A stretch of 23,060 nucleotides of DNA. It comes from a virus. The DNA lies in IMG/VR virus record IMGVR_UViG_3300020472_000182, positions 1-23,060 of that record. The stretch is one strand, 5' to 3'. The position numbers and the translations under genes were made by a program. The notes under the pieces are model-generated. The model did not search any database. It had not been told where the DNA came from and worked only from the letters and a program-made list of their open reading frames with translations. Positions 1,988 to 16,628 of the stretch are shown one piece after another (within the stretch, counting starts at the first letter, position 1; the number at the start of each line of letters is the position of its first letter).

Positions 1988-2157
1988 CAGTTTGATGCAG
2001 TTGGGGGTGATGGTAGACAGTTTGATAACTGGTTGTAAAGTGTCCCATCATCCACAGATTTGTGGTAGAAAGGTTGTGTATCTGATTGCATCATCATATC
2101 CATTATAAATCGGATCTGAGATGTCGTTAGATTAACTTGGGTAGTCTGTTCAATCAT
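1987..2157 (-). CDS. Small protein, 56 aa, function unknown
   Basis: The frame opens at the ATG of 2155-2157, which overlaps the methyltransferase TGA (ATGA), and ends at TGA 1987-1989, which overlaps the next ATG (TGATG). It is therefore linked to genes on both sides. The product begins MIEQTTQVNLTTSQIRFIMD, with a run MDMMMQ, and has a middle (FYHKSVDDGTLYNQL) like other small cyanophage proteins that pair a 'T..Q..FI' start with a 'Y.QL' segment. It has one cysteine and no membrane segment. The exact fit between two genes is the strongest evidence; function is unknown. Confidence 0.65.
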   Translation of the reverse strand: MIEQTTQVNLTTSQIRFIMDMMMQSDTQPFYHKSVDDGTLYNQLSNCLPSPPTASN

Positions 2158-3104
2158 AAGTGGTTCAGGATGCTTGTAGACGCTTTTGAAGGGGTTACAG
2201 GAAGTGTTTCTATTCTCTTTTGAATTAGATCACCATAATTCTCATGTAATTCACACCCAATATAATGTCTATCGAGTGATTTTGCAACTGTTGCAGTTGT
2301 ACCACTGCCCATGAATGGATCAAGTACAGTGTCACCCTTTTCACTACCAGCAAGGATACATGGTTTGATCAGTTCTTCAGGATACGTAGCGAAGTGTGCT
2401 CCCTTGTATGGTTTCTTGTTTACCGTCCAGACAGAGCGTTTATTGCGTTTTGTATATGATTTTGTAAGACCTGAATGCGGTTGGAGTCCTGTTCCTTCGT
2501 TGTGGTACTTTCCTTTTGATCTGTCTCTTGTTCCCCAGTCTTTTGCTGGTTCTTTGATTGCTTCATTGTCATAGTGGTAATACTTACTCTTACTCAAGAG
2601 AAAGATATACTCATGAGACTTTGTACATCTATCTCTTACACTCTCTGGCATAGGGTTTGGTTTATGCCATATAATATCTTGTCTTAGATACCAACCATCC
2701 GCACGTAATGCAAATGCAAGCATCCAAGGTATACCAATCAGATCCTTATCCTTATATCCTTGGAGTTTGTTAGATCTTCTTGGTGTAGTCTTAGGTAGGT
2801 CTTGTCTATTAGCAGAGAATGTCTGCTTAGGTATACACCCATCCTTTCTATAGTTATAATAACTGTCACCAATGTTCAACCATAGTGTACCATCTTCCGT
2901 GAGTACATTGCGTACCTTGCGGAATACCTGTACCATCTCTTGAACATATTCTTCTGGTGATTGCTCTTGTCCTATCTGGTCATCCTCACCACCATAGTCT
3001 CTTAGACCATAGTAAGGTGGAGAAGTAACACACATCCTTGCACTCTCTGGTAAGAAAGCATCGAGTGTATCACGACAATCTCCAAATAGAATAGTATCTT
3101 GCAT
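2154..3104 (-). CDS. Orphan DNA methyltransferase, beta-type (N4-cytosine or N6-adenine)
   Basis: This enzyme transfers a methyl group from S-adenosylmethionine to an exocyclic amino group in DNA. Catalytic motif IV is TSPPYYGLRDY at residues 27-37, followed by DGTLWLNIGDSY (71-82). SAM-binding motif I, DPFMGSGTT, lies at 262-270, with YIGCE after it. This IV-then-I order is the beta group, and SPPY is most common in N4-cytosine enzymes though not exclusive. Residues about 180-235 probably form the target recognition part. Length (316 aa) is normal for the family. I chose the ATG at 3102-3104; the longer frame would need a TTG inside the leader. No restriction gene is nearby, so it is an orphan, plausibly protecting phage DNA from host restriction or marking it for regulation. 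A structured leader and TTGACA promoter precede it. Confidence 0.9.
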   Translation of the reverse strand: MQDTILFGDCRDTLDAFLPESARMCVTSPPYYGLRDYGGEDDQIGQEQSPEEYVQEMVQVFRKVRNVLTEDGTLWLNIGDSYYNYRKDGCIPKQTFSANRQDLPKTTPRRSNKLQGYKDKDLIGIPWMLAFALRADGWYLRQDIIWHKPNPMPESVRDRCTKSHEYIFLLSKSKYYHYDNEAIKEPAKDWGTRDRSKGKYHNEGTGLQPHSGLTKSYTKRNKRSVWTVNKKPYKGAHFATYPEELIKPCILAGSEKGDTVLDPFMGSGTTATVAKSLDRHYIGCELHENYGDLIQKRIETLPVTPSKASTSILNHL

Positions 3105-3210
3105 GTTTAAAAAATTGGTGGAGGAAAACAAAACTAAGGGTCAATGCATTACCCCAACGGTCATGTGTCTGCTTCTAAGTCAGACTAGTCGGGAACTCGT
3201 TTGTTTTCCT
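3105..3210 (-). ncRNA. Structured 5' leader of the methyltransferase mRNA (candidate cis-regulatory RNA)
   Basis: The predicted transcript starts near 3210. Its first 11 bases (minus strand of 3200-3210, AGGAAAACAAA) are perfectly complementary to bases at 3122-3132, about 18 bases before the ATG. Inside this closing stem lie two smaller hairpins: GTCTG/CAGAC with a nine-base loop (3167-3185), and GGGT/ACCC around AATGCATT (3138-3154). A run of six T's (minus strand) sits just before the ATG and no Shine-Dalgarno is visible. The layout suggests an RNA element that controls translation or transcript end. It matches no riboswitch class I know, and the pairing is by eye only. Confidence 0.4.
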
Positions 3211-3258: not shown

Positions 3259-3822
3259 CTACGTAAACTGTCTACCAACACACCACCCAACAATGCTTTT
3301 TCTGATACCTTTAGTTACAGGTTTAACTCTATGACCTAGAGTTGATGGAAATACTATCAATGAACCTGCCTTTGGTTCTAATGCTATTCTATCCCAATTC
3401 AATTGTATACCATATCGGGGCATAACAAATTCAAACTCTCCACCCTCATAATCATCATTTAATAAGAGTGAGAAGGATAGTTTACGATGTAATAGTCTAT
3501 CTTTATGACCTTGACGTATGTAATCAATGTGCCATCCATAATGATCATTCACATGATAATGTGCATACTGATACTTACCTCTATCAAATCCATCATCTAA
3601 TTGATATTTGTACACGTCCTCGTTGATGACTTGCACATGATGTCTGCAGAATTTAGCAACCCAGTCGTTATCATAACGCATACAAACACTAGTAGAGCGA
3701 AGAGGAATTTCTTTATTCTTAATTCCTGCTACCGTACCTCTGCCAAATTCTGAAGTATCATCAAGATACTCAATTATATTGGGTGGAAGTAATATATCAA
3801 CTGCAGTTGGTTCATTGTACAT
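3259..3822 (-). CDS. 2-oxoglutarate/Fe(II)-dependent oxygenase, prolyl-hydroxylase-like, 187 aa
   Basis: Enzymes of this fold couple decarboxylation of 2-oxoglutarate to hydroxylation of a substrate at a non-haem iron. The iron ligands are visible as H98-x-D100 in GWHIDY and H164 in TLGHRVKPV. R174 in GIRKSIVGW fits the 2-oxoglutarate anchor. The strand LLLNDDYEGGEFEF (about 119-132) is the usual core signature and is shared with the oxygenase at 8003-8539. Length is typical for phage members. I start at the ATG of 3820-3822; the codon before it is TTG. It follows the 110-aa gene by 24 bases and is separated from the late oxygenases by the halogenase block, so it may be expressed earlier and act on something else. 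The substrate is unknown. Confidence 0.9.
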   Translation of the reverse strand: MYNEPTAVDILLPPNIIEYLDDTSEFGRGTVAGIKNKEIPLRSTSVCMRYDNDWVAKFCRHHVQVINEDVYKYQLDDGFDRGKYQYAHYHVNDHYGWHIDYIRQGHKDRLLHRKLSFSLLLNDDYEGGEFEFVMPRYGIQLNWDRIALEPKAGSLIVFPSTLGHRVKPVTKGIRKSIVGWCVGRQFT

Positions 3823-3846
3823 CAATCATTAAAGATAGGGATGATG

Positions 3847-4962: not shown

Positions 4963-6069
4963 TTAAGAATGATTTATACCATCATGCCATTGTTTGAATG
5001 ACACTCGTGGCCAAATCCCATACTCTTGACCTGCGAACGCTTTTGAGTTTAGCATGGGATAGTCCATTTGTACAGCACTGTCATGATATTTGAGGAAATC
5101 ATCATCTGGTTTAAATGCTAGACTCTTGGCATACTCCCAGAATCCAGTATCATAGGCAGATCCGAACTGGTAGTGCCATAGAATAAATGTTTCGATCTGC
5201 TTCATGTACTTCTGTACATCATGATCACATTTATATTTTGGTTTGCCATCTATAATATGTTCCCACGCATGACCAGCAATGTTACGATAGAATGAAGTTG
5301 AGGTTGCCTCTAGTGGTTCTAGGAAACAAAATCTATTACCATTAAGTATAGTTCTATCTCCTTTGAACATACTCTTAGCAATATAATTTTTGAATGTTAG
5401 ATCACCATCAGGAACTACATTGAAGATCTCATGCATATTAAATGCTGCTTCATCCTTGGATGTTATGTTAGTATTGTAGAGATACCCATATGATATACTA
5501 TCATGATTTGGTATTACAAATGTCCAACCATCAGGTGTTGCAACACACTTAGTGTATGTTAAATCTGGATCTCTACCACCTTGCTTACATAATAAAACTG
5601 CATTCAATGGATTGATGAGAGTATGATATTCATCTTCATCTGACTTACCTCTACAATCAAAGATGTAGTCAGCATCAATCTCTACCTCAGGATCTATTAC
5701 ATTCTTCTCAATTAGATTAACATACTGTGATTCTCTAACCTTTTTTGATAATTCATGTGTCTGGAAATGACATGCAATGCTATCCATGTAAAACTTATGG
5801 AAGATCTGCTCTTGCTTCTTTCCCCATTTCTCATATAATACACCAGTCTTGATTGTTGCACCAATATCATTGTTCCACCAATCTATATTAAGACTGGCAG
5901 ATATTAACTGCAATACATCAGGAGTAGTGCCTTGTCCTACTTTCTCCATTGGAGTGTTTGGATCGTAATACATATCGATCTCAAACAATTCTTTACCATA
6001 GTATCCAAAGTTCAATGCAGTCATGCATCCAGCATTACCAGCACCTATAATAGCAATTCTCTTTTTCAT
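4963..6069 (-). CDS. Short flavin-dependent (tryptophan-type) halogenase
   Basis: Enzymes of this family use reduced FAD, O2 and halide to form hypohalous acid, which a lysine passes to an electron-rich substrate such as tryptophan. The FAD-binding GAGNAG is at residues 9-14. K74 in GATIKTGVLYEKW lines up with the catalytic lysine of PrnA-like enzymes, and E254 in EPLEATS with the glutamate near it. The family's WxWxIP motif is present as W182-TFVIP-187, with Phe for the second Trp. At 368 aa it is far shorter than PrnA (about 540), so part of the substrate-binding region is missing. Related genes in cyanophages are annotated tryptophan halogenase (prnA). It follows a 61-aa gene (ATGA overlap) behind promoter 6274-6302. 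The true substrate is unknown. Confidence 0.85.
   Translation of the reverse strand: MKKRIAIIGAGNAGCMTALNFGYYGKELFEIDMYYDPNTPMEKVGQGTTPDVLQLISASLNIDWWNNDIGATIKTGVLYEKWGKKQEQIFHKFYMDSIACHFQTHELSKKVRESQYVNLIEKNVIDPEVEIDADYIFDCRGKSDEDEYHTLINPLNAVLLCKQGGRDPDLTYTKCVATPDGWTFVIPNHDSISYGYLYNTNITSKDEAAFNMHEIFNVVPDGDLTFKNYIAKSMFKGDRTILNGNRFCFLEPLEATSTSFYRNIAGHAWEHIIDGKPKYKCDHDVQKYMKQIETFILWHYQFGSAYDTGFWEYAKSLAFKPDDDFLKYHDSAVQMDYPMLNSKAFAGQEYGIWPRVSFKQWHDGINHS
4971..4978 (-). promoter_or_regulatory. Possible late-promoter-like TATAAATC
   Basis: The minus strand reads TATAAATC, seven of eight matches to the T4 late box TATAAATA, inside the last codons of the halogenase gene and about 27 bases before the ATG of the 63-aa gene. 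A late start here would let the small genes be made separately from the halogenase. The match is modest and AT-rich DNA gives such octamers by chance. Confidence 0.3.
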
Positions 6070-6265: not shown

Positions 6266-6302
6266 TATGCTATAGCATACCAAATAATTACTGAGTTGTC
6301 AA
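6266..6302 (-). promoter_or_regulatory. Sigma-70-type promoter with a 14-bp palindrome over the -10 box
   Basis: The minus strand has TTGACA (complement of 6297-6302), a 17-base spacer and TATGCT (complement of 6274-6279, four of six to TATAAT). The perfect palindrome TATGCTATAGCATA covers 6266-6279, so it includes the whole -10. The -35 overlaps the end of the 292-aa gene, so late transcripts from the right read through it. Transcription would start near 6267. The palindrome may be an operator, or as RNA a weak stem-loop followed by a U-rich stretch that ends the upstream transcript. Confidence 0.75.
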
Positions 6303-7166
6303 GTCTTCAAATTCGTTAGTTGTTTGGATGTAAGCATACACTTCAGCAACTGTCCCATTAGGGTTGACATCAAACTCTAAGTTAAAGTATGCTTCACCTT
6401 GTAGTTTAGATGTAATGAATGCCACTTGGTCTGTTGTCAGTATTTGTACACCTTCATCACGTGACATTAAATCTAAGTATTCAATAGCAAGTTCTCTTGT
6501 GTCTGCACTATATCTCAGAACTCCCTTGTCTTTGTAATTATCATCAAAGAACTTGGGATACTTAAAGTTTAATCTGTATGTGATTAGATCACTATCAGGA
6601 TAAACATCAATTGTCCCTTTACACACATCACCACGATACAAAGGAATTTGATTTACTCTATTTAAAAAATCATTATCTTCTAGTTCATCTAGATCATATG
6701 TTGAATCAAATACTCTAATACTAATCAGATCACCAGTTGGTGATAATGTTATACCATTGAACCAAGTATTAGTTGCATCAGTAACATTGGTTAATGAATC
6801 AAAATGCTTCCTTGCATCATTAAACTTAGGTTGTCCGATACCATCAACAAATCGTTTCCAACTATATGGATTAAGAGCTACACTAGAATATGTGTAGAAC
6901 TTCTTACAAAAGAACTCTTGATACTCACCATCTAAGTGATAGACATACAAATCATTATCAAATGAATAGTTTGGATCATTCGTATCTAATTGTTTAAAGT
7001 TAAAATACTTGTTGATTGCTTCTTTCGCAGCAGCATCTAGTACAGGACCATACTGAGCACTATCAAGACTAGTAAACCTTGCAGGCATCATCTCAACGGT
7101 TGCTACCTTCTCTCCGTCTGACAGACGATACTTATCAGCAATGTCGTAGTCTTCGTTAAAGATCAT
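6288..7166 (-). CDS. Unknown protein, 292 aa, last gene of the late block
   Basis: No domain is recognised. It begins MIFNEDYDIADKYRLSDGEK and is acidic with many aromatic residues and alternating strand-like stretches (YRLNFKYPKFF, about 197-207; AYFNLEFDVNPNGTV, about 258-272). It may be a beta-rich virion or accessory protein. It has no signal peptide, membrane span or cysteine cluster. The ATG at 7164-7166 overlaps the TAA of the 115-aa gene (TAATG). It sits downstream of three oxygenases in the same run, so it may be their partner or substrate, or a structural protein of the tail; both are guesses. The promoter at 6266-6302 overlaps its 3' end. Confidence 0.75.
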   Translation of the reverse strand: MIFNEDYDIADKYRLSDGEKVATVEMMPARFTSLDSAQYGPVLDAAAKEAINKYFNFKQLDTNDPNYSFDNDLYVYHLDGEYQEFFCKKFYTYSSVALNPYSWKRFVDGIGQPKFNDARKHFDSLTNVTDATNTWFNGITLSPTGDLISIRVFDSTYDLDELEDNDFLNRVNQIPLYRGDVCKGTIDVYPDSDLITYRLNFKYPKFFDDNYKDKGVLRYSADTRELAIEYLDLMSRDEGVQILTTDQVAFITSKLQGEAYFNLEFDVNPNGTVAEVYAYIQTTNEFEDLTTQ

Positions 7167-7513
7167 TATTCGTTACTCGCAAGTTGTTGTCCTTCAGCAT
7201 TTACAAGAGAATAGAATATATAATTCTCTGGTGTTGCAGTTGATGCTTGTGATGATGGAAGATTATCACTCAACCACTCCATAGTATCAGCAACATCATC
7301 ATCTATCTCACAGAATACATGCTCTGAATTCTTCAATGCAGTCCACAAATCATTTGGTAGAATGTCTTGATACACTGCATATGATGCATTGATAGCATCA
7401 ACATCAGAACTAGCATTCCAACCAGTTGATTTTAAGTAGAGTACAGGCTTGCCCAACTGAGCAGCATATTTCTCAATGAAATTATCAAGGTAGAAAGTGT
7501 TGTAGTTATTCAT
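7166..7513 (-). CDS. Unknown protein, 115 aa
   Basis: No known domain. The product starts MNNYNTFYLDNFIEKYAAQL and has an acidic segment around HVFCEIDDDVADTMEWL (about 66-82). I start at the ATG of 7511-7513, which overlaps the TGA of the oxygenase upstream (ATGA); the only longer option is a TTG at 7529-7531, which would add six residues and a 22-base overlap. The end overlaps the 292-aa gene (TAATG), so the two may work together. It has one cysteine, no metal site and no membrane span. Function is unknown. Confidence 0.7.
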   Translation of the reverse strand: MNNYNTFYLDNFIEKYAAQLGKPVLYLKSTGWNASSDVDAINASYAVYQDILPNDLWTALKNSEHVFCEIDDDVADTMEWLSDNLPSSQASTATPENYIFYSLVNAEGQQLASNE

Positions 7514-8010
7514 CTGAGTAGTAGTTTCCAAGCAATTGTTATCCGTAGTCCTATGAATGCTCTAGAGCATCCTTCTGCCATGTGTGGAATCATTCCAGGA
7601 AATATAATAGCATCTTTTCCTTTAGGAAGATGGTAATGATAATTATCATCACCTAATCGGAATATAGTCTTGCCATTGTATTCTGGTCTCCATTTTTCAT
7701 TAGCGTAGTAGAGAAATGTTCTCTCGCTATCATCATGCCAGTCAACGTGGAATTCACCCTGCGTACCAAATGTATGCCCATTAGCATACACGTTACTAAG
7801 TTCATAATCTTGTTGGGTTTTTTCCTTAATGATATTTAGAAGATAATCAGTATAATATGGATTGTCACTTAGTTCATAGATCCAAAATGGATATCTACGT
7901 AAGTAATGTGATCCATGACCATACTTCCATCCCGATTTCGCCATGTCATCAAAGATCTTTGTCTTCTCTGGTAAATCAAAGAAGTCATCATATGTTTTAA
8001 TATCATTCAT
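7510..8010 (-). CDS. 2-oxoglutarate/Fe(II)-dependent oxygenase, 166 aa
   Basis: Iron-binding H88-x-D90 is in GEFHVDWHDD and the distal histidine H143 in GMIPHMAEG. R156 in GLRITIAWK is the likely 2-oxoglutarate anchor. Between them, FLYYANEKWRPEYNGKTIF (about 99-117) matches the strand before the core in a subfamily with 'W..E..G...F'. A second His at 92 could also be read as a ligand, but the spacing favours H88. It differs clearly from the 178-aa oxygenase immediately upstream and from the 187-aa one at 3259, so these are not recent copies. The start ATG (8008-8010) overlaps the upstream gene by 8 bases. It is probably late and the substrate is unknown; nearby virion proteins are possible targets. 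Confidence 0.85.
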   Translation of the reverse strand: MNDIKTYDDFFDLPEKTKIFDDMAKSGWKYGHGSHYLRRYPFWIYELSDNPYYTDYLLNIIKEKTQQDYELSNVYANGHTFGTQGEFHVDWHDDSERTFLYYANEKWRPEYNGKTIFRLGDDNYHYHLPKGKDAIIFPGMIPHMAEGCSRAFIGLRITIAWKLLLR

Positions 8011-8539
8011 AAGTCCATATACCTTGAAGTACGCGGGTTGATGATGGAATATATTCTTCCATCCATGCTATAAACACATCTCTCCTACCAGAGGTTACCA
8101 TGTTTACTCTGTGGAGTAAATTACCAGGATATATTACTGCTTTACCCTGTGGTAATTTGAATTCTCTCTCACCATCCTCGGTTGTAATAACCAACTCTCC
8201 ACCTTCATAGTCATCATTAAGAAAGCATGTCATACTATAATCTGGTCTGACACCACCACAAGGGTTAGAATCATAATGATCTTCATACTGTCCACCAACA
8301 CCATATTTTATAAAATATACTTGTGACAATCTTGACACAAATGATTTTACCTTATTTTCTATGATTTGTCCACAGTACATATTAATGTCACAGACACCAG
8401 CACCCTCATATGCAGTAGAGCAGACTTTACTCTTTGCATCTGGGTTACTTCTCTTACCATCTTCAAAGGGTAGGTAATCGAAGTATCGTTTGACGTATGC
8501 TAATTGTTCATTATCTAGTAAATCAATTTCACGTATCAT
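8003..8539 (-). CDS. 2-oxoglutarate/Fe(II)-dependent oxygenase, PKHD-type, 178 aa
   Basis: The metal triad is H88-x-D90 (YEDHYDSN) and H143 (NLLHRVNMV). R153 in GRRDVFIAW, six residues before Trp159 as in the 187-aa enzyme, is the likely 2-oxoglutarate-binding residue. The core strand FLNDDYEGGELVI (about 106-118) is typical of PiuC/PKHD-type hydroxylases and matches the enzyme at 3259-3822. Four cysteines (40, 50, 56, 94) are more than usual. The ATG at 8537-8539 overlaps the TGA of the 307-aa gene (ATGA). It lies in the chain 307-aa protein, this enzyme, 166-aa enzyme, so all three are likely made together. The family acts on amino acid side chains, free or in protein; the substrate here is unknown. 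Confidence 0.9.
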   Translation of the reverse strand: MIREIDLLDNEQLAYVKRYFDYLPFEDGKRSNPDAKSKVCSTAYEGAGVCDINMYCGQIIENKVKSFVSRLSQVYFIKYGVGGQYEDHYDSNPCGGVRPDYSMTCFLNDDYEGGELVITTEDGEREFKLPQGKAVIYPGNLLHRVNMVTSGRRDVFIAWMEEYIPSSTRVLQGIWTYE

Positions 8540-9459
8540 AGTTGACTATCATCAGTATAGAACTTATCCCAATCCAATGGAACGATATCTTCAACATTCA
8601 AATCACGCATGAGTTGAAGAACACTCTCTGTAACTTTTCTATTTGCAAGTTTACCACGTTGAGCAAGTCTATACATATTCTCTTCTCTACTCTTAAAGAA
8701 GTCTATACTTGCTTCACCATCCTGTCTAACCCACTGATCAGCATCATTCTCATCCATAAATGCAGGAGGACTTGCTTCACCCTCATATAGTCTTCTATAA
8801 TTTGATGGGTCAATTGGGAACTTAAGTTCATATGTATATTTAAAATACTTTAGACCTGATCCTTCAAACTGAGCATCAGTTGGTGAGGGTAATGTGTTAT
8901 CACGTAACCATTGTCTCCACTTAACCCAGTCTGCTTTCTCACCTGTATACTTTTCTGCAATGTCAGGTAATACCCTCCAATCAGATAGTCCTAACATATT
9001 ATTTCTCTGTCTGAGGAGTTTACGCCATCTTTGTTCCCAGAAGATGACCTCATCATCGAGACCTTGTACTTTCTCTTCTACCTGTAAACTCTTAACCTGT
9101 TCTACAACATAGAAGAAGTCTTGTACTGACTTATATAATTCTTCTGCTTGTGCTGCTGTTCCTGATGTAAATGAATATGTTTGTTGGTAGTATGTCTCAG
9201 TCTGGAAATCATATACCTGCTTTCTTCTTTGACAAAAGTATTTGCCATCATTAAAATATTGGAACAACTCAAGTTGATCCTTATCAGTATGCCAGAACTC
9301 ATCTACTTGAGTTTCAAAAAACTTTGTAATTAAGTCAGCATCTACTTTAAATCTCTTCGGCCACCTATAACCTTGTTCTAATTTCCAAGGTTGTTGACCA
9401 CTAAAAGACCCATTCAAAAAGTCAGCTTCAATGAGTAATGTTCTTTCTGTAAAAGCCAT
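8536..9459 (-). CDS. Tail-associated protein with a phage tail-assembly-chaperone-like segment, 307 aa
   Basis: Residues about 150-195 read R..NNMLGLSDWRVLPD, then W178..WRQWLRDN, resembling the 'LL..sDWt..pD...W..yRqaLRd' signature of the phage tail assembly chaperone-like family (Phage_tail_APC). That family is often found next to tail-fibre genes. The N-terminal 90 residues are aromatic-rich with mixed charges. Residues 104-135 look helical. It may assist folding or trimerisation of the fibre proteins upstream; this is inference from the motif and position. A GATAAATA box (9500-9507) precedes it. The ATG at 9457-9459 is six bases after the upstream oxygenase stop, and its end overlaps the next oxygenase (ATGA). 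Confidence 0.7.
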   Translation of the reverse strand: MAFTERTLLIEADFLNGSFSGQQPWKLEQGYRWPKRFKVDADLITKFFETQVDEFWHTDKDQLELFQYFNDGKYFCQRRKQVYDFQTETYYQQTYSFTSGTAAQAEELYKSVQDFFYVVEQVKSLQVEEKVQGLDDEVIFWEQRWRKLLRQRNNMLGLSDWRVLPDIAEKYTGEKADWVKWRQWLRDNTLPSPTDAQFEGSGLKYFKYTYELKFPIDPSNYRRLYEGEASPPAFMDENDADQWVRQDGEASIDFFKSREENMYRLAQRGKLANRKVTESVLQLMRDLNVEDIVPLDWDKFYTDDSQL

Positions 9460-9465
9460 GAGAGT

Positions 9466-10158
9466 TTACTTACCTTTGATGTACCATCCTGTTACTATGT
9501 ATTTATCTTCAGTGAGGACTGTATTACCCTTATGTGTATGAGTAAATCCACTAGGCCAAATAACAACAGTACCTGCAGTTGGTTTAATTCTACGTCTTTG
9601 ATATAAAAACTCAGTCTCTGCCTCTCCATCTGGCATATCATTTAGATATATCATCCACACCAATTCTCTTGAGGCATGTGCTATGTCAGCATCTTCATGA
9701 TGCCATAGATGATAACCACCGCCTGGTGGAGTTCGTTGCACTTTAACATCAGTAGACAACAATGCTTGATACTTCAATGCTTGATATTCATTAACATAAT
9801 GCTTAGCACATGATTTAAGAACTTGATTGATTTGTGTAACAAGATCTCTATTTGAATAGTTTAATAGAAATGCAAAATCTTTTCTATTCAGAGCACCACC
9901 ATAGAAATCTTCTGACTTGTATATAGTTTCACTATTTTCAAGGTGTTCAAGATCTTCAGAACTTGGAAACTCCATGTCTGGATCATAATTAACCTTCACA
10001 CCCATATCTGAAATAGTATTAGAATAATTGATAATAGTATCACATAATGGTTTTGGCATGAAATTAGGCCACACACCAATAAAGTCGTCGAATTCGACTT
10101 TGGTCATCTTTGGGTCTAGCATCAATTCAAGTGGTCTATAATCAGGAATTTCAGTCAT
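9466..10158 (-). CDS. 2-oxoglutarate/Fe(II)-dependent oxygenase, prolyl-4-hydroxylase-like, 230 aa
   Basis: The first metal-binding motif is in GGYHLWHHEDADIA: H153-x-E155 or H154-x-D156 are both possible, and I favour the first from the usual 'H.WH.E' form of phage members. H207 in GFTHTHKGN is the distal ligand and K219 in EDKYIVTGWY the likely 2-oxoglutarate anchor, as in prolyl 4-hydroxylases. The segment MIYLNDMPDGEAETEFL (about 169-185) is the core strand pair. The first 100 residues are an extension with no clear homology. It starts at the ATG 10156-10158, one base after the stop of the 1139-aa fibre protein, with a CTAAATA box 20 bases upstream. Of the four oxygenases it is closest to the adhesins. 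Confidence 0.88.
   Translation of the reverse strand: MTEIPDYRPLELMLDPKMTKVEFDDFIGVWPNFMPKPLCDTIINYSNTISDMGVKVNYDPDMEFPSSEDLEHLENSETIYKSEDFYGGALNRKDFAFLLNYSNRDLVTQINQVLKSCAKHYVNEYQALKYQALLSTDVKVQRTPPGGGYHLWHHEDADIAHASRELVWMIYLNDMPDGEAETEFLYQRRRIKPTAGTVVIWPSGFTHTHKGNTVLTEDKYIVTGWYIKGK
9500..9507 (-). promoter_or_regulatory. Possible late promoter GATAAATA
   Basis: The minus strand reads GATAAATA, matching NATAAATA, which I recall as the late promoter motif reported for cyanophages, and 7 of 8 to the T4 box TATAAATA. It lies inside the end of the 230-aa oxygenase gene, about 40 bases before the start of the 307-aa gene. It could allow separate late expression of the chaperone-like gene and the oxygenases. 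Confidence 0.4.
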
Positions 10159-10159
10159 A

Positions 10160-13100
10160 TTAATAAGCTTTGATCATATATTTAGTCTTGTGGAAAGGGT
10201 TCAATATTGGGACTTGTCGTTGTGGTCTCATTGTAACATCTGGGGTTGGTTTTTTAAAGTTACTTGCAAATTTAAACTCAGCATCTGACATATCCATGAA
10301 TATATCATTCTGTGTGAATGATACTTGAATTGCTGATGCTGCACCACCACTACCAGCAGGAGAAACTGCACTAACTTTAAAGAATGAACCACCAAAGGTT
10401 GAATCCCACCAAGCACATGTTAGTTCATCACCATTAGCATATCCTTGTCCAGGACTAATAATTGTATTTATTCTGAACCTTGTATCACCAATTGGATCAG
10501 TATTGTCTACACTTGGCCAAGGTGTGAATGTTATGTTTAATTTCATACCTGAACCTGATCCACTGACACCAGAAGGATAAACCATATCCTGTTCAATTTG
10601 AACTTCATCGTTAACAGATGTCCAGTAACCAGTTGTGAGACGATATGCCCACTGGTTAATATTTTTACCAGTCCACACACCCTGTGGTATACTAGAACCA
10701 ATAAGTCTATCTTGCCACAATTCAAATGTTTGTAGTCCTCCACTAACACCACCACCTAGACCAGCACCAAAAGGTGCTCCAGAAGTACCAACACCTGATA
10801 CATTACCACCAGTGAAATCTGTTTGAGGATTACCAACAGTAGACTCAGTAAGTAGATGAGCATGTGTTAATGTTTGTCCACCAACAGGAGTATATGAGTC
10901 AAATCTGAAGCTAATAGGTTGTGTATCAACAACAGCAGAACACTCAGGTGCATTAGGAATTGTACCTGCTCCAGTATCTTGGAGTACAGCACCAGTTATA
11001 ATACTGGCAGGTGATATCCACCATGTTAGGAAATCTATAAATGTTTGTCTATCAGAAGACTCAGGACCAAAGTCAACTGATCCGTTAAATGGTCTTTCTT
11101 CATTCTCTTTGTAAGTAGTGGGGAGATTATCTCGTATGAAATCATCTGTTGAATATGAAGTACCGTAGTATAATGTTAATTCTTGTGCGAATTGATTCAA
11201 TGAGTTAATCCATGTCAACCATCCTCTACGTATACTTTCATCCGTAGGAGAACCATCACCAACTTGGTTACCTGGCCATTCTTGTGGACCTACCTCTGCA
11301 GGAGTAGAGAACATACCTCGACCCTGAGGAGACCATCTAATCACTGCTTCACCTGCATCATTTTCAGTTACAGCAGCAAGGTATGAATGATTATGTTCTG
11401 GTGCTGTAACTGTAACCTCTTGTATAGGTCCAATCTGTGCAATAACAACACCCTGAATGTTAAACCTAACATCATCAGTAACACTTTCTAATCCTAACAG
11501 TCTTACAGTACCAAGAGAGAAGAACTGTGAATTAAGTCCTGTATCACTTGTAGCTGGTCCTTGAATCTGCTCTAGTGGTTGTACACCAAACGAGTCAACT
11601 CTATCAAAGTACCAATATCCACCCTCAGCACCAACATCATTAATACCTTTACCAGATGTAGATACAGGTAAGAATGCTGAGTTTCCACTAGAAGAATCAA
11701 CTAATCCAACACCACATAGTCTTCTGTTCCTATAATCAGGTAAGTTAAACACACCACTATATGTTCTAGTACCATTAATATCTACATCTACTTGACCTGT
11801 ACCACCATAGGTAGTACCAATGACATCAAATAATGCCCAGTATTGTTCAGCATCAATCTGTTGACCTTCACATGCAATGAATCCAGCATATCTACTACCG
11901 TTAACACCAGTGGTATCACCATATGTTGAAGTAGCACCTTCTTTTAGGATAGGCATAACTGTACCAATAGGATAACCATCAAACTTCTCAGTCTTATTAC
12001 TATACCACTTACCTAGATTAGTAGATGGTGGTGGCACAACAGCATATGTTGTTACTGTCCATGTAAATGGATTATTAATTGAACCAGTACCAACAGTGAT
12101 AGTAGTATTTTCTGGTGTATTCAACTGTGTAGCAGATCTAATGATAAGATAGAAACTAGTATTAACTGAGGGATCAAATGTTCTTGGTCCTTCTACTGGT
12201 GTATCAAAATCAATAGAAATCAATGCATTGTATCCACCAGTGCATTCAATAGTAATTGGTTGGTTGATACCAGTAACAGTTACAGGAGCACTAGAAATAA
12301 AAGTATCTGGTACTTGATTAGTTCTATCTGCTGGTGGTAAGAATGCTGCATTGGTATCTGGTCCGTTGTTAGTGACAACAGTCCATGTTGGAATAGTTCT
12401 AGAACCAACAGAAATTTGTAGTTCTTTAGGGGTACCAAAATTTGTAGATGATTGTAAGTAAATGGTTAATGTATCACCATTCTCTACATTTGTAGGGAAT
12501 ACACCAATAGAACCATTATTTTTCTTAACTCTTACAAGGGTAGCATCAGTATTAATAACCTGTACAGGTACTGATACACCAGCACCTAGTCCACTAATAC
12601 CACCTGAGGGTTGCTCATCTGATCCAACAAGTGCATCTGCTTCAGCATTATTAACATCAGTAAAACTAAATCCATCAGGTAGTGACGATAGATTTGCTCC
12701 AGTAGTAATAGTCCATGTGGATCCTGCAGCAATGTCACCAATAGTCAAATCTGTTGACCTTGCTGTTAATGCTGTTGATGTGGTAATCATTCTTAATTGT
12801 AAATAATCACCATTCTGTATAGTTCCATTCTGGGTAGCAAATGTGGCATTATCTAATACATCAAAACCATCAGCATTTGTTGTGGTAGTATTAACAGATG
12901 CAACCGCCCACTCACCAACACCAGTAGTTGCAATTAAACCTGGTGCATTCATTCCCTGAATTCTTATAACCTCAGAATATGCGTACTTATTTACAGTTAA
13001 GTCAATTAAATCTGTGAATACTGGAAATGGTATAGGTTCATTAGCATCTTCTGGTTTGTTTGTTATTTTCCACTGTTCATTAGATGTACCAATAACTAAA

Positions 13101-13579
13101 TTAAGTCTAAGATTCTGACTATTAAATGGACTAGTCGTTCCTCTAATCTGAATCTTAGCACCATTTTCCACAGTTACTGATCCACTGGGCTGAATCCATG
13201 CAGTATCCCAGTTACCATCACCATCATAATCAAGTCTCAATGACCAAACAGATGCATCACCAATGACATTAGAACTCATTGATATTGGTGCTTGTGTTGT
13301 TGGTGTCAGTCCACTAACAGTGACTATAGTCTCATTGGGTCTGTTACCATCAGCCCAAGTATACATTGTACTTACTTCTGCATCCTCAACATCTGTAAAT
13401 GGGAAAGGATCAGGTGTAAAATCTTCAGGAATGGTTGAAATCAACCAGAACTGTGTAAGGTCACCAATCTGTACAGTAATAGTTTGAGTAAAGCTCCATG
13501 AAGGTGGTGCTTTAAACTTAAACTGAATATAATCACCCTCATCAACATATAAAGGGGTATTTGAATAAGAATACGTCAT
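10160..13579 (-). CDS. Large tail-fibre/adhesin protein with beta repeats and a tail-collar domain, 1139 aa
   Basis: Residues about 1-515 form four or five divergent beta-sandwich units of roughly 110-130 aa, each with a GDYIQF or GDYLQL-type strand, a W-x-I-x-T strand, and in three units an F.FTDV or FTDL segment. A tail-collar region follows at about 535-625: YPIGTVMPI, GFIACEGQ, LFDVIGTTYGG, FNLPDYRNRRLCG. The C-terminal 500 residues contain a Gly-rich stretch (GLGGGVSGG) and end TKYMIKAY, an end typical of collar-type fibres. It is probably a trimeric, surface-exposed part of the tail or baseplate that contacts the host. A late-type box lies upstream (13614-13621). The ATG at 13577-13579 has an AGGA directly before it. 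A fusion of repeats and collar is likely. Confidence 0.85.
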   Translation of the reverse strand: MTYSYSNTPLYVDEGDYIQFKFKAPPSWSFTQTITVQIGDLTQFWLISTIPEDFTPDPFPFTDVEDAEVSTMYTWADGNRPNETIVTVSGLTPTTQAPISMSSNVIGDASVWSLRLDYDGDGNWDTAWIQPSGSVTVENGAKIQIRGTTSPFNSQNLRLNLVIGTSNEQWKITNKPEDANEPIPFPVFTDLIDLTVNKYAYSEVIRIQGMNAPGLIATTGVGEWAVASVNTTTTNADGFDVLDNATFATQNGTIQNGDYLQLRMITTSTALTARSTDLTIGDIAAGSTWTITTGANLSSLPDGFSFTDVNNAEADALVGSDEQPSGGISGLGAGVSVPVQVINTDATLVRVKKNNGSIGVFPTNVENGDTLTIYLQSSTNFGTPKELQISVGSRTIPTWTVVTNNGPDTNAAFLPPADRTNQVPDTFISSAPVTVTGINQPITIECTGGYNALISIDFDTPVEGPRTFDPSVNTSFYLIIRSATQLNTPENTTITVGTGSINNPFTWTVTTYAVVPPPSTNLGKWYSNKTEKFDGYPIGTVMPILKEGATSTYGDTTGVNGSRYAGFIACEGQQIDAEQYWALFDVIGTTYGGTGQVDVDINGTRTYSGVFNLPDYRNRRLCGVGLVDSSSGNSAFLPVSTSGKGINDVGAEGGYWYFDRVDSFGVQPLEQIQGPATSDTGLNSQFFSLGTVRLLGLESVTDDVRFNIQGVVIAQIGPIQEVTVTAPEHNHSYLAAVTENDAGEAVIRWSPQGRGMFSTPAEVGPQEWPGNQVGDGSPTDESIRRGWLTWINSLNQFAQELTLYYGTSYSTDDFIRDNLPTTYKENEERPFNGSVDFGPESSDRQTFIDFLTWWISPASIITGAVLQDTGAGTIPNAPECSAVVDTQPISFRFDSYTPVGGQTLTHAHLLTESTVGNPQTDFTGGNVSGVGTSGAPFGAGLGGGVSGGLQTFELWQDRLIGSSIPQGVWTGKNINQWAYRLTTGYWTSVNDEVQIEQDMVYPSGVSGSGSGMKLNITFTPWPSVDNTDPIGDTRFRINTIISPGQGYANGDELTCAWWDSTFGGSFFKVSAVSPAGSGGAASAIQVSFTQNDIFMDMSDAEFKFASNFKKPTPDVTMRPQRQVPILNPFHKTKYMIKAY
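10179..10185 (-). promoter_or_regulatory. Possible late promoter CTAAATA ahead of the 230-aa oxygenase
   Basis: CTAAATA on the minus strand, followed by TATGATC, lies inside the last codons of the 1139-aa gene, about 20 bases before the ATG at 10158. It fits the T4-type late box (TATAAATA) in six of eight positions when extended. Its position just ahead of the oxygenase suggests that this gene may be transcribed late together with, or independently of, the fibre gene. Confidence 0.4.
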
Positions 13580-13613: not shown

Positions 13614-13621
13614 TATTTAGA
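13614..13621 (-). promoter_or_regulatory. Possible late promoter TCTAAATA ahead of the 1139-aa fibre gene
   Basis: The minus strand has TCTAAATA, seven of eight to the T4 late box, overlapping the stop codon of the 1003-aa gene. It is 35-42 bases before the ATG at 13579, in one of the few gaps (37 bases) within the structural block. The position, not only the sequence, supports it. Confidence 0.45.
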
Positions 13622-16600
13622 TCTCTCTCACACCCTTCCAATCGTCTTCAAGGTTTTTATCTACCTGAATAGGATAGTTTGCTTTTATCTCAACTGGGAT
13701 GTCAATACCATCAACCAACAACAATTCTGATAGAACAGTTGTTTCTGGTGATTCTACAGGTTCCTCTTCTTTAACTTTATCTTTACTCTCAGGAATTGAG
13801 AAGTTATCAGGTGTCTGGTCAATTATTACACTTGTATTTGTACTATCCTGAGCACTTCCACCAGTACCATTGACTGCAATTACCCATGTGATAAGATATG
13901 GACCAAAATCATTCCATGGTACACCAACAGTGGTATAATCAATAGTACCATCTCTATCTGTTGTACCTGAAGTACCACCTAATTCAGATGAAGTTGCGGG
14001 ATTTACAACAATAGTCGTACCAACACTTTGAGTACCATCAAGATTATAATAAGTTGGTGTTATCTCAATAGATGCATCTGCATATTGTGTTTCATATTCA
14101 ATATCAAAAATATCATTACCGTAGTTAATATTAGCAGGTGAAGTAATACTACATGTTGGTGGTTGAGATACATTAATAGTAACACATGTGATAGCAGATG
14201 TGCCACCAATACCAGATACTTGAGCACAATAAGTTGTGGTATCACCAGGACATACTTGAGCATTACTAGTAAGGTTTGTATTACTAATGTTACCTTGTGT
14301 CCACGTTAGTGAATCAGCATCACCAGTTGTAGACCATTCTATAGTAGTACATCCACCATTTACAATAGTATCTGTTGGATTAGCTATCATAGTTATTGTT
14401 GGTGGTGTTAAAACCGTTACAGAAACAGAAAGATTAGTAGAACCTTCTGGACCTGTAGCTTCTAAGAAATATGTGGTATTTTGTGTTGGATTTACTACAG
14501 CGGTACCGAAGAAGGAATTAATATCAGTAGTATTAATAATATTAGGAGTAATTAATAGGTTAGTAGCATCACCAAACACAATCCATGATAGTGTAACAGA
14601 AGCACCTGCTGCAATTGTTAGTGAATTAACTGCATTACCCTGAGGATCAATGATCTTAAAGTTAGCACTTGGTGGAAGAGTTTTGTTATGACCTGGAATC
14701 CATCTTTCTCCACTGTCACTAGTCTCAAGAATAATATTAACACCATTAGCAGCACAATCTGCTACGAATTCATTGTAAGATGCCTGAACAGTATTGAATA
14801 CCATACTACCAGATATATCAATCCATAGTGATACGTATGTACCAGTAGGTACTTGGTTTAGATTACAAATATCAAACCAACTAGAAGTAAAATTAGCATT
14901 ATTATTGTCACGTCTAACTTGAATACCACCGTTTGCATATGGGTCACTCAAATAACTTGGTGGCATTTTCAATCTACTAAGCGGATAAGATATATTACCG
15001 TTAGAATTTATGACTGCCTGTAGCAACCAGAATGTTCTGTATGGAAAATTAGAACGAAAAGAATTCCAGTCATTCTCCATAGTATTGACTGATGGAGATA
15101 CCTCGTCAATAAGAGAGATACAGTTAATTAACTGAGCAAGTTGTGAATTTGAAATCTTTGCAATGAATGGTGGTTCTGCATTAGGATCATTCCAATTAGT
15201 GAATAATTCAGGACTAAACTCATTACTGCCATTAAATTGGAAGTCTGCAATTGGATCATCTAATGCAGCAATCTTACGTATAAGAGGGTGATTAGAATTA
15301 CTACTTATAAGTCCTTCATTTTCATTAGGAGTGCTACTTCCACCAACACCTGATGTACCAGTCTGTCTTACTCCCTGCCAATTATCCTCAGAATTTTTAT
15401 CTACCAGTATAGGAAAATCTGCATGAATTTCTACTGGAATGTCAATATCATCTATTAATATCTTCTGAGTAGTAACTGTAGTTTCTGGTGATATAACTGG
15501 ATCTTCTAATCTAATCTTATCTGGGCTTTCAGGAATTGAGAAATTAGCAGGTGTTTGGTCTATGACAACTTGAAAAGTGCCACTGTCTGATGCAGGGGCA
15601 GCACCATTTACTGCTATATTAACTAGGATCGATGAAGGTCCTTTGGTTGTCCATGGTACACTAACACTAACAGTACCATTTCTATCTGTAGCTGATGATG
15701 ACCCACCCAATTCTGCAGATGACGCTAGAGGTGTAATGTTAATAGGATTACCAACAAAGGTACTACCATCAAGATAGTTATATGTTGGTGTTATTGTAAT
15801 ACCACTTGTAGCATATTGTGTGGCATATCCTATATCATAGGTAGGTTCGGCATAATTTATTAGACCAGGAAGAGTTAATGAACATGTTGGTACTTGTAAC
15901 ACGTTAACTGTGACACAAGTAGTTCCAGAACCACCACCAGGACCAAAAGCTTGAGCACAATATGTTGATGTATCACTAGGTATTACAGTCTGATTACCTG
16001 ATTGATTTGTACTAGAAATAGTACCAGAAACAAAACCAAAACTGGTTGTTGGATTTACACAATACCATGAAACATTAGAAGATGATCCAGCAACTATAGT
16101 TGATGGATTTGTATTAAAAATAATTTGTGGTGCATAATATTGACAAGTACCATCATCAGTTATAGCACTTGAATCATAGTTATATGCTTGTGGATCAGTA
16201 CATCCTGAAGGAAGTATACAAGATCCATCATCCTGTGTGGCATTTGAATTATAGTTTGTTGCTTGTGGATTAGTACATCCTAAAATAGGGCAGTCACCAG
16301 TTGACATGCCTGTATGCCTTCCATTAGAAGCAACTGCTGCTCTTTCCTGAGCACCACCATTAAAGATGAATGTTTGTAGAGAAGTATTATAGGTACTATT
16401 AGCAGCATTTCCACCATCAACAAAATTGTTATTTGGAGAAGTAAATCCTTGATACCAATAGTTTGCACCACCTTCCTCAGCATACCTACCAAAATAAACA
16501 TTATACCAAAAACTTATCTCATCATAAATCCAACTACTACCATCAGGAAACCAAAATCTCTCAGACCCACCAAGTGAATTGATGCAAGTCTGTCCGTATT

Positions 16601-16628
16601 GATTGAAGTGACCGTCTAGAAATGCCAT
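13617..16628 (-). CDS. Mosaic adhesin-like virion protein, 1003 aa (DUF4214-like, Cys-rich, Ig-like and vWA-like parts)
   Basis: The N-terminus (about 36-100; WYNVYFGRYAEEGGANYWYQ) resembles DUF4214, found in surface proteins. Two copies of the GCTxPQAxNYxxxAxxDDGxC repeat follow (117-137, 142-162). Residues 170-422 and 746-1003 are duplicate copies of an Ig-like plus strand-rich unit, each ending in FSIPES, IDIPVE and a VDKN..D.W.GVR motif. A third, partial Ig-like unit is at about 655-740. Residues 598-650 look like half of a von Willebrand A domain with D604-x-S606-x-S608 (DISGSM). I infer a modular, exposed tail or capsid adhesin for host contact. It is directly adjacent to the 107-aa gene (TAAATG). 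Domain names are by eye. Confidence 0.8.
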   Translation of the reverse strand: MAFLDGHFNQYGQTCINSLGGSERFWFPDGSSWIYDEISFWYNVYFGRYAEEGGANYWYQGFTSPNNNFVDGGNAANSTYNTSLQTFIFNGGAQERAAVASNGRHTGMSTGDCPILGCTNPQATNYNSNATQDDGSCILPSGCTDPQAYNYDSSAITDDGTCQYYAPQIIFNTNPSTIVAGSSSNVSWYCVNPTTSFGFVSGTISSTNQSGNQTVIPSDTSTYCAQAFGPGGGSGTTCVTVNVLQVPTCSLTLPGLINYAEPTYDIGYATQYATSGITITPTYNYLDGSTFVGNPINITPLASSAELGGSSSATDRNGTVSVSVPWTTKGPSSILVNIAVNGAAPASDSGTFQVVIDQTPANFSIPESPDKIRLEDPVISPETTVTTQKILIDDIDIPVEIHADFPILVDKNSEDNWQGVRQTGTSGVGGSSTPNENEGLISSNSNHPLIRKIAALDDPIADFQFNGSNEFSPELFTNWNDPNAEPPFIAKISNSQLAQLINCISLIDEVSPSVNTMENDWNSFRSNFPYRTFWLLQAVINSNGNISYPLSRLKMPPSYLSDPYANGGIQVRRDNNNANFTSSWFDICNLNQVPTGTYVSLWIDISGSMVFNTVQASYNEFVADCAANGVNIILETSDSGERWIPGHNKTLPPSANFKIIDPQGNAVNSLTIAAGASVTLSWIVFGDATNLLITPNIINTTDINSFFGTAVVNPTQNTTYFLEATGPEGSTNLSVSVTVLTPPTITMIANPTDTIVNGGCTTIEWSTTGDADSLTWTQGNISNTNLTSNAQVCPGDTTTYCAQVSGIGGTSAITCVTINVSQPPTCSITSPANINYGNDIFDIEYETQYADASIEITPTYYNLDGTQSVGTTIVVNPATSSELGGTSGTTDRDGTIDYTTVGVPWNDFGPYLITWVIAVNGTGGSAQDSTNTSVIIDQTPDNFSIPESKDKVKEEEPVESPETTVLSELLLVDGIDIPVEIKANYPIQVDKNLEDDWKGVREI
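13620..14393 (-). repeat. Second copy of a 253-258-aa internal duplication in the 1003-aa protein
   Basis: This DNA encodes residues 746-1003, matching residues 170-422 (DNA 15363-16121) along nearly its whole length. Shared landmarks in the same order are TTTYCAQ/TSTYCAQ, TCVTINV/TCVTVNV, PTCS, ITPTY, SSELGG/SAELGG, DQTPxNFSIPES, SPETTV and VEI..xxPIxVDKN. The copies have diverged in the first 40 residues. The copy ends at the protein's C-terminus, so the duplication probably built the tail of this adhesin. Confidence 0.8.
15363..16121 (-). repeat. First copy of the internal duplication in the 1003-aa protein
   Basis: This DNA encodes residues 170-422 and pairs with the copy at 13620-14393. 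It contains an Ig-like unit (SNVSWYCVNP, TSTYCAQA, TCVTVNV) and a linked strand-rich unit ending FSIPESPDKIR and VDKNSEDNWQGVR. Between the two copies sit the von Willebrand A-like part and a third, shorter Ig-like unit. Confidence 0.8.

Follow-up and report, generated by a model that had tools for sequence, protein, structure and literature searches.

A conserved tail-fibre module of T4-like marine cyanophages carries three candidate protein-hydroxylating 2-oxoglutarate oxygenases

The IMG/VR virus record IMGVR_UViG_3300020472_000182, a complete contig of 23,060 bases from a T4-like marine cyanophage (hereafter the window), encodes three 2-oxoglutarate (2OG)-Fe(II) oxygenases, OG230, OG178 and OG166, alongside a short tail fibre protein and a tail assembly chaperone. 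This module arrangement is conserved across phages of several genera. As the leading explanation, with a probability of roughly 0.45, we propose that all three enzymes hydroxylate proteins, are expressed late and belong to the tail-fibre assembly module. The nearest annotated relatives of the window are the Synechococcus phages S-CAM4 and ACG-2014j (Kyanoviridae), with about 67% DNA identity over the region.

All genes of the module lie on the minus strand, in the order fibre, OG230, chaperone, OG178, OG166, two conserved unknowns, a halogenase-like gene and a fourth 2OG oxygenase. The first seven are:

10160..13579, minus strand: short tail fibre protein, 1139 amino acids (phrog_4924, Collar domain PF07484), the module's first gene
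9466..10158, minus strand: OG230, 230 amino acids, WHxE-type 2OG-Fe(II) oxygenase (PF13640, PHROG 61)
8536..9459, minus strand: tail assembly chaperone, 307 amino acids (phrog_4697; weak Phage_tail_APC PF16778)
8003..8539, minus strand: OG178, 178 amino acids, PiuC/PKHD-like 2OG-Fe(II) oxygenase (PF13640, PHROG 61)
7510..8010, minus strand: OG166, 166 amino acids, prolyl hydroxylase domain (PHD)/prolyl 4-hydroxylase (P4H)-like fold (PHROG 274; AlphaFold2 model)
7166..7531, minus strand: conserved module gene, function unassigned (phrog_4883, T4-GC 742)
6288..7166, minus strand: conserved module gene, function unassigned, fast evolving (phrog_4851, T4-GC 743; median dN/dS 0.51)

The open reading frame (ORF) coordinates bear out what an earlier note on this DNA had described, namely three unlike 2OG-Fe(II) oxygenases, the first starting one base past the 1139-residue fibre gene, with a chaperone gene as the sole interruption. 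From the chaperone through the gene at 7166-7531, successive genes overlap by 4, 8 and 22 bases, a pattern that fits translational coupling.

Identity of the three oxygenases

OG230 and OG178 matched PF13640 above the cut-off (E = 4.9e-11 and 1.7e-11, respectively), and OG166 matched it under the cut-off (E = 5.6e-4). The other window oxygenases share 19-25% identity with OG230, so the three enzymes are rightly called unlike. At E 0.1, no AlkB-type Pfam family was among the matches of the four window oxygenases.

Judged by their conserved residues, the three enzymes look catalytically intact. The ligands of OG178 (H88/D90/H143/R153) were invariant in 52 distinct sequences, those of OG166 (H88/D90/H143/R156) in 41 and those of OG230 in 58, a few truncated rows being allowed for. 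The predicted iron site of OG230 is an HxE variant, not HxD; it consists of H153-x-E155...H209 with K219 binding 2OG, and HxE was present in 58/58 distinct sequences of the alignment. The neighbouring D156 is variable (D in 9/58). HxE is a native variant among clavaminate synthase-like oxygenases, and the WHxE signature is shared by many members of the family that lie elsewhere than in the module. The metal ligands had already been called intact, which their invariance across relatives supports; the HxE variant of OG230 had gone unnoticed.

The AlphaFold2 model of OG166 is confident (predicted local distance difference test, pLDDT, 87), and about 160 of its residues align to hypoxia-inducible factor (HIF) PHD2 and Pseudomonas putida P4H (4j25, 4iw3) with Z ~17 and HxD...H kept. 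This model and the prolyl hydroxylase matches settle the assignment of OG166 as a 2OG oxygenase with the double-stranded beta-helix fold despite the weak PF13640 match; identity to the two enzymes is 15-18%, the likeness being one of fold, known from the model. OG178 matches the PiuC/PKHD hydroxylase structures (9ghl, 3dkq; 2e-13) across the catalytic core with all ligands present. Unlike them it is shorter, falls under the NCBIfam equivalog cut-off for PiuC/PKHD (103 bits vs 143, NF003974) and is linked to tail genes rather than to a TonB receptor.

For OG230, the best profile match was vCPH, the PBCV-1 collagen prolyl hydroxylase (E = 7e-4; PDB 5c5t, 5c5u). It was also the top Foldseek match of the OG230 model (pLDDT 68, weaker than that of OG166), followed by related P4H/PHD structures. 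Both are virus-encoded 2OG oxygenases with the 2OG-binding Lys 10 residues past the distal His. However, the two sequences resemble each other weakly, HxE replaces HxD in OG230, the confidence of its model is only moderate and the fibres lack collagen-like repeats. The nearest relatives by sequence or fold are prolyl hydroxylases for OG166 and, weakly, for OG230; from sequence comparison and predicted structure, all three enzymes appear closest to protein-hydroxylase folds or families.

Two further matches of OG166 were set aside. It scored 53 bits against the NCBIfam 'FlmC family 2OG oxygenase' (cut-off 240), and Caulobacter FlmC itself resembles a cytidylyltransferase and is unrelated. A PDB profile match to a GH62 hydrolase was discarded since the alignment falls on the expression tag.

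RefSeq and PHROGs both give the OG166 family the label 'DNA endonuclease V'. PF03013 (Pyr_excise) found no match in OG166 or in 8 cyanophage proteins so labelled or from the same cluster, of which 7 matched PF13640 (three of the seven weakly or near the cut-off). The true PF03013 DenV was located elsewhere in 9 of the 11 genomes checked. With no Pyr_excise domain, a prolyl-hydroxylase-like fold and the true DenV elsewhere, we conclude that the label is wrong for OG166. Oxygenases labelled denV or 'DNA endonuclease V', or belonging to the same cluster, occur in P-SSM2, S-PM2, S-RSM4, ACG-2014d, ACG-2014h and S-SSM7.

Conservation and expression of the module

The order fibre, OG230, chaperone, OG178, OG166 is kept in most of the more than 100 related viral-contig loci. 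The full module is present in S-PM2, Syn1, S-CAM1, S-CAM3 and ACG-2014j, and a partial one in S-RSM4, ACG-2014h and S-H9-1. In S-PM2 and Syn1, the three genes correspond to clusters T4-GC 240, 28 and 166 and keep this order, but they were published as auxiliary metabolic or repair genes (PMC3037559), unlike the tail-module reading given here.

The viral loci were mostly retrieved with OG230 as the query and therefore cannot alone show that OG230 is universal; phage records retrieved via the chaperone are the fairer sample. In those records, S-WAM2 is the only genome inspected in which oxygenases do not adjoin the chaperone. OG230 was found in nearly every genome carrying this chaperone, S-WAM2 and contigs L127-L129 being the only ones without it among those inspected, and genomes without OG230 carry divergent fibres. 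Even among sequences that have diverged widely, to 40% identity, OG230 holds the slot between fibre and chaperone, and it is hardly ever lost. OG230 and the chaperone form the invariant core of the module, the fibres vary, and the pair of OG178 and OG166 is optional.

In 7 complete genomes, 16 of the 47 PF13640 matches listed fall within 2.5 kb of the chaperone, against 1.2 expected, and 0 of 20,000 random placements reached 16; since the genomes were chosen via the chaperone and are related, and 47 is the number of matches listed, this is not a strict probability. All three enzymes are under purifying selection, with a median dN/dS of 0.23 for OG230, 0.26 for OG178 and 0.33 for OG166 (fibre, 0.43).

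Oxygenase clusters also follow unrelated fibre genes in S-SM1, S-CAM9, S-SSM7, Syn9 and P-TIM40, and in P-SSM2 a PiuC lies inside the fibre cluster. In Syn9 (L017, gp43-gp54), the fibres are followed by two tryptophan halogenases and then by an island of many small oxygenases, where 7 of the 10 further genes tested match 2OG, JmjC or cupin-type oxygenase families, some weakly (types PF13759, PF13640, JmjC_2 and DUF6445).

Late-type boxes had been noticed near the oxygenases. This holds for a conserved [AC]TAAATA before fibre, OG230 and chaperone, but nowhere does the window contain the T4 late promoter TATAAATA in its exact form. For S-PM2, NATAAATA has been reported as the late promoter (PMC2984593). 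The three boxes are:

13614..13620, minus strand: CTAAATA late-type box, 41 nucleotides 5' of the fibre start; [AC]TAAATA in 36/43 relatives
10179..10185, minus strand: CTAAATA late-type box 5' of OG230, in the terminal part of the fibre coding sequence (codons ACT AAA TAT); [AC]TAAATA in 47/53 relatives
9500..9507, minus strand: GATAAATA late-type box 5' of the chaperone, within OG230 (Asp-Lys-Tyr codons); [AC]TAAATA in 51/51 relatives

At random positions, [AC]TAAATA had a control frequency of 0.05. Synonymous codons at the two boxes within coding sequence are more uniform than average, with AAA in 49/49 sequences at the OG230 site against a genome-set average of 0.67. CTAAATA is not over-represented across the whole window, so only its conserved position counts. 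Such boxes precede neither OG178, OG166 nor the two following genes, which are therefore probably read from upstream. Given the conserved boxes, we infer that late expression of the module is likely.

Candidate substrates within the tail

Under the proposed protein-hydroxylase role, OG230, OG178 and OG166 would be made together with the fibre and the chaperone, and would hydroxylate side chains of a protein of the tail or baseplate, or of a chaperone, ahead of assembly or in its course. By analogy with their nearest relatives, the target residue of OG166 and OG230 might be Pro. Of the three, OG230, the constant member, is the likeliest to be directed at the fibre or the chaperone.

The fibres had been described as rich in Pro, Asn and Thr, and the two large proteins indeed contain 6.3-6.5% Pro, 6.1-9.2% Asn and 11-12% Thr, compared to 4.1, 5.2 and 5.9% in ten non-fibre window proteins. 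A collagen-like substrate was rejected, as there are no GXY runs in the two large proteins. The second structural protein is encoded directly upstream of the fibre gene:

13617-16628, minus strand: structural protein upstream of the fibre, 1003 amino acids, with a long internal repeat

It also has cysteine-containing GCTxPxAxNY repeats, and its relatives are 1003-1558 amino acids long, varying by module number.

A sister lineage (contigs L036, L037, L039-L042, L056 and L120-L123) lacks exactly OG178 and OG166 and keeps the fibre, OG230, the chaperone and the following genes. It represents a natural double knockout of the pair.

Several observations weigh against the proposed role. The pair-less fibre has the same architecture as that of the window and is about 71% identical to it, and sliding identity showed no pair-specific divergent segment. 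The 1003-residue structural protein is of full length in pair-less contigs (71-72% identity), so no domain loss accounts for the pair. In a co-loss test on fibre, chaperone and module proteins (6 pair-less vs about 50 pair-containing sequences), none of the conserved Pro, Lys, Asn or Asp columns of pair-containing fibres was lost in pair-less fibres; the only fibre residues lost in all pair-less sequences were T92, L262 and G743, none of them a usual hydroxylation target. As far as these alignments go, the fibres as a target of OG178 and OG166 gain no support from the sole natural experiment available. Further, S-WAM2 keeps fibre and chaperone without any of the three oxygenases. Cyanophage genomes have 5-13 PF13640 matches each among the matches listed, many away from tail genes and some adjoining DNA replication or psbA genes; the tail linkage we describe covers this oxygenase set only, not all cyanophage 2OG oxygenases. 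Gene order speaks for co-expression, not for a substrate, and both the PiuC family and fold similarity leave the protein substrate unfixed.

The earlier suggestion that the oxygenases hydroxylate the adhesins thus stands in part. It is favoured by the conserved coupling to fibre and chaperone, the purifying selection, the boxes and the hydroxylase folds, but the pair-less lineage keeps the same fibre.

Alternative roles and published views

Two genes that the earlier note overlooked, the fourth 2OG oxygenase and the halogenase-like gene, lie downstream, followed by a further gene of another kind:

4963..6069, minus strand: flavin-dependent halogenase-like protein, 368 amino acids (PF04820, phrog_2928), downstream in the window's lineage
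3259..3825, minus strand: fourth 2OG-Fe(II) oxygenase, 188 amino acids, PKHD-like (PF13640, 3e-17)
2154-3131, minus strand: likely DNA methyltransferase (TSPPYYGLRDYG motif, by eye)

The product of 4963-6069 matched PF04820 with E = 8.5e-30. As in the tryptophan halogenases PrnA and VirX1 (6qgm), it has the flavin adenine dinucleotide (FAD) motif and the catalytic Lys and Glu; these residues (G9, G11, K74 and E254) are invariant in 44 halogenase-like sequences. Unlike those enzymes, it has about 370 rather than about 530 residues and a WxFxxP motif: WxWxIP was not found in this product, GWTFVIP standing in its place, with W182 and F184 invariant. Halogenase-like relatives of similar length occur on many other viral contigs (L131-L172), and, within the lineage of the window, relatives of the fourth oxygenase are encoded 3' of the halogenase gene.

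Possibly, cyanomyoviruses possess an oxidative tailoring island dedicated to their adhesion apparatus, in which the prolyl-hydroxylase-like HxE enzyme locked to the chaperone, the optional hydroxylases and the short halogenase together hydroxylate or halogenate tail-fibre proteins. We put this forward tentatively and with considerable doubt; if true, phages would use 2OG oxygenases to modify their adhesins after translation.

The main rival to protein hydroxylation is small-molecule chemistry (siderophore, iron or secondary metabolites) with the halogenase-like protein as a partner, the late operon being a place that tolerates the insertion of auxiliary metabolic genes. We consider it unlikely. 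In its favour, PiuC is the enzyme that OG178 resembles most, the module is followed by a flavin halogenase-like gene, and the S-SSM7 island also holds carbamoyltransferase and sugar genes. Moreover, the closest cellular WHxE homologue (L177:6025-6603, on an apparently bacterial contig of a gammaproteobacterial metagenome-assembled genome, MAG) lies directly 3' of a TonB-dependent receptor gene, a setting that resembles that of PiuC, fits small-molecule chemistry as well and so counts against a protein substrate. On the other hand, the OG230 slot is constant down to 40% identity, unlike that of a mobile metabolic gene, and the window has no receptor or siderophore gene. Another WHxE relative lies close to tail sheath genes. 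At this locus (L178:1112-2430), two 2OG oxygenases neighbour each other 5' of a tail sheath gene, with heme-oxygenase-like and bilin-reductase-like ORFs, recognized by eye, in between. This phage-like contig was binned as a gammaproteobacterial MAG.

The enzymes could instead hydroxylate host proteins, for example translation factors, in late infection, as bacterial PHD-like enzymes bind and modify EF-Tu. The P. putida P4H:EF-Tu complex 4iw3 and 4j25 are indeed among the nearest structures of OG166, but a shared fold does not imply a shared substrate, and the genomic context, with the genes locked to fibre and chaperone, holds no pointer to host translation; we regard this role as improbable.

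Slightly less probable again is that the target is the chaperone or another tail-assembly factor rather than a virion protein, for example in an oxygen- or 2OG-dependent assembly checkpoint. Two oxygenase genes flank the chaperone gene, and OG230 and the chaperone are invariant while the fibres vary, but S-WAM2 has the chaperone without the oxygenases.

In the literature, cyanophage 2OG oxygenases were proposed by Sullivan 2010 to modulate 2OG/NtcA, with Weigele 2007 cited for DNA repair (PMC3037559). The repair role was repeated for S-SZBM1, argued from adjacency to uvsX/uvsY/uvsW (PMC9146016). Elsewhere, they were assigned to the reprogramming of host metabolism, their function being stated as uninvestigated; for S-SCSM1, 24 2OG oxygenases were reported, and the account of its virion proteome names no oxygenase among the annotated non-structural proteins (PMC9602691). 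A Baltic Sea study touches in a general way on prolyl hydroxylases of viruses and on collagen in tail fibres (PMC9301287). For this module, the published modulation of 2OG/nitrogen signalling or DNA repair is very improbable: uvsY/uvsW or DNA polymerase genes are indeed close to some cyanophage 2OG oxygenases, but these three are not near repair genes, have no AlkB-type Pfam match at E 0.1, include one whose 'DNA endonuclease V' label is wrong, and consuming 2OG would not need three distinct slot-specific enzymes. In a literature search outside which most subscription papers lay, we found no published proposal of fibre hydroxylation by this module, nor the tail-module linkage, the HxE site or the DenV mislabelling.

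A module locked to fibre and chaperone provides a concrete hypothesis on the function of one cyanophage oxygenase set, and a misleading 'DNA endonuclease V' label is corrected. If the adhesins are hydroxylated, this would matter for how abundant marine phages recognize their hosts and for the stability of their virions.

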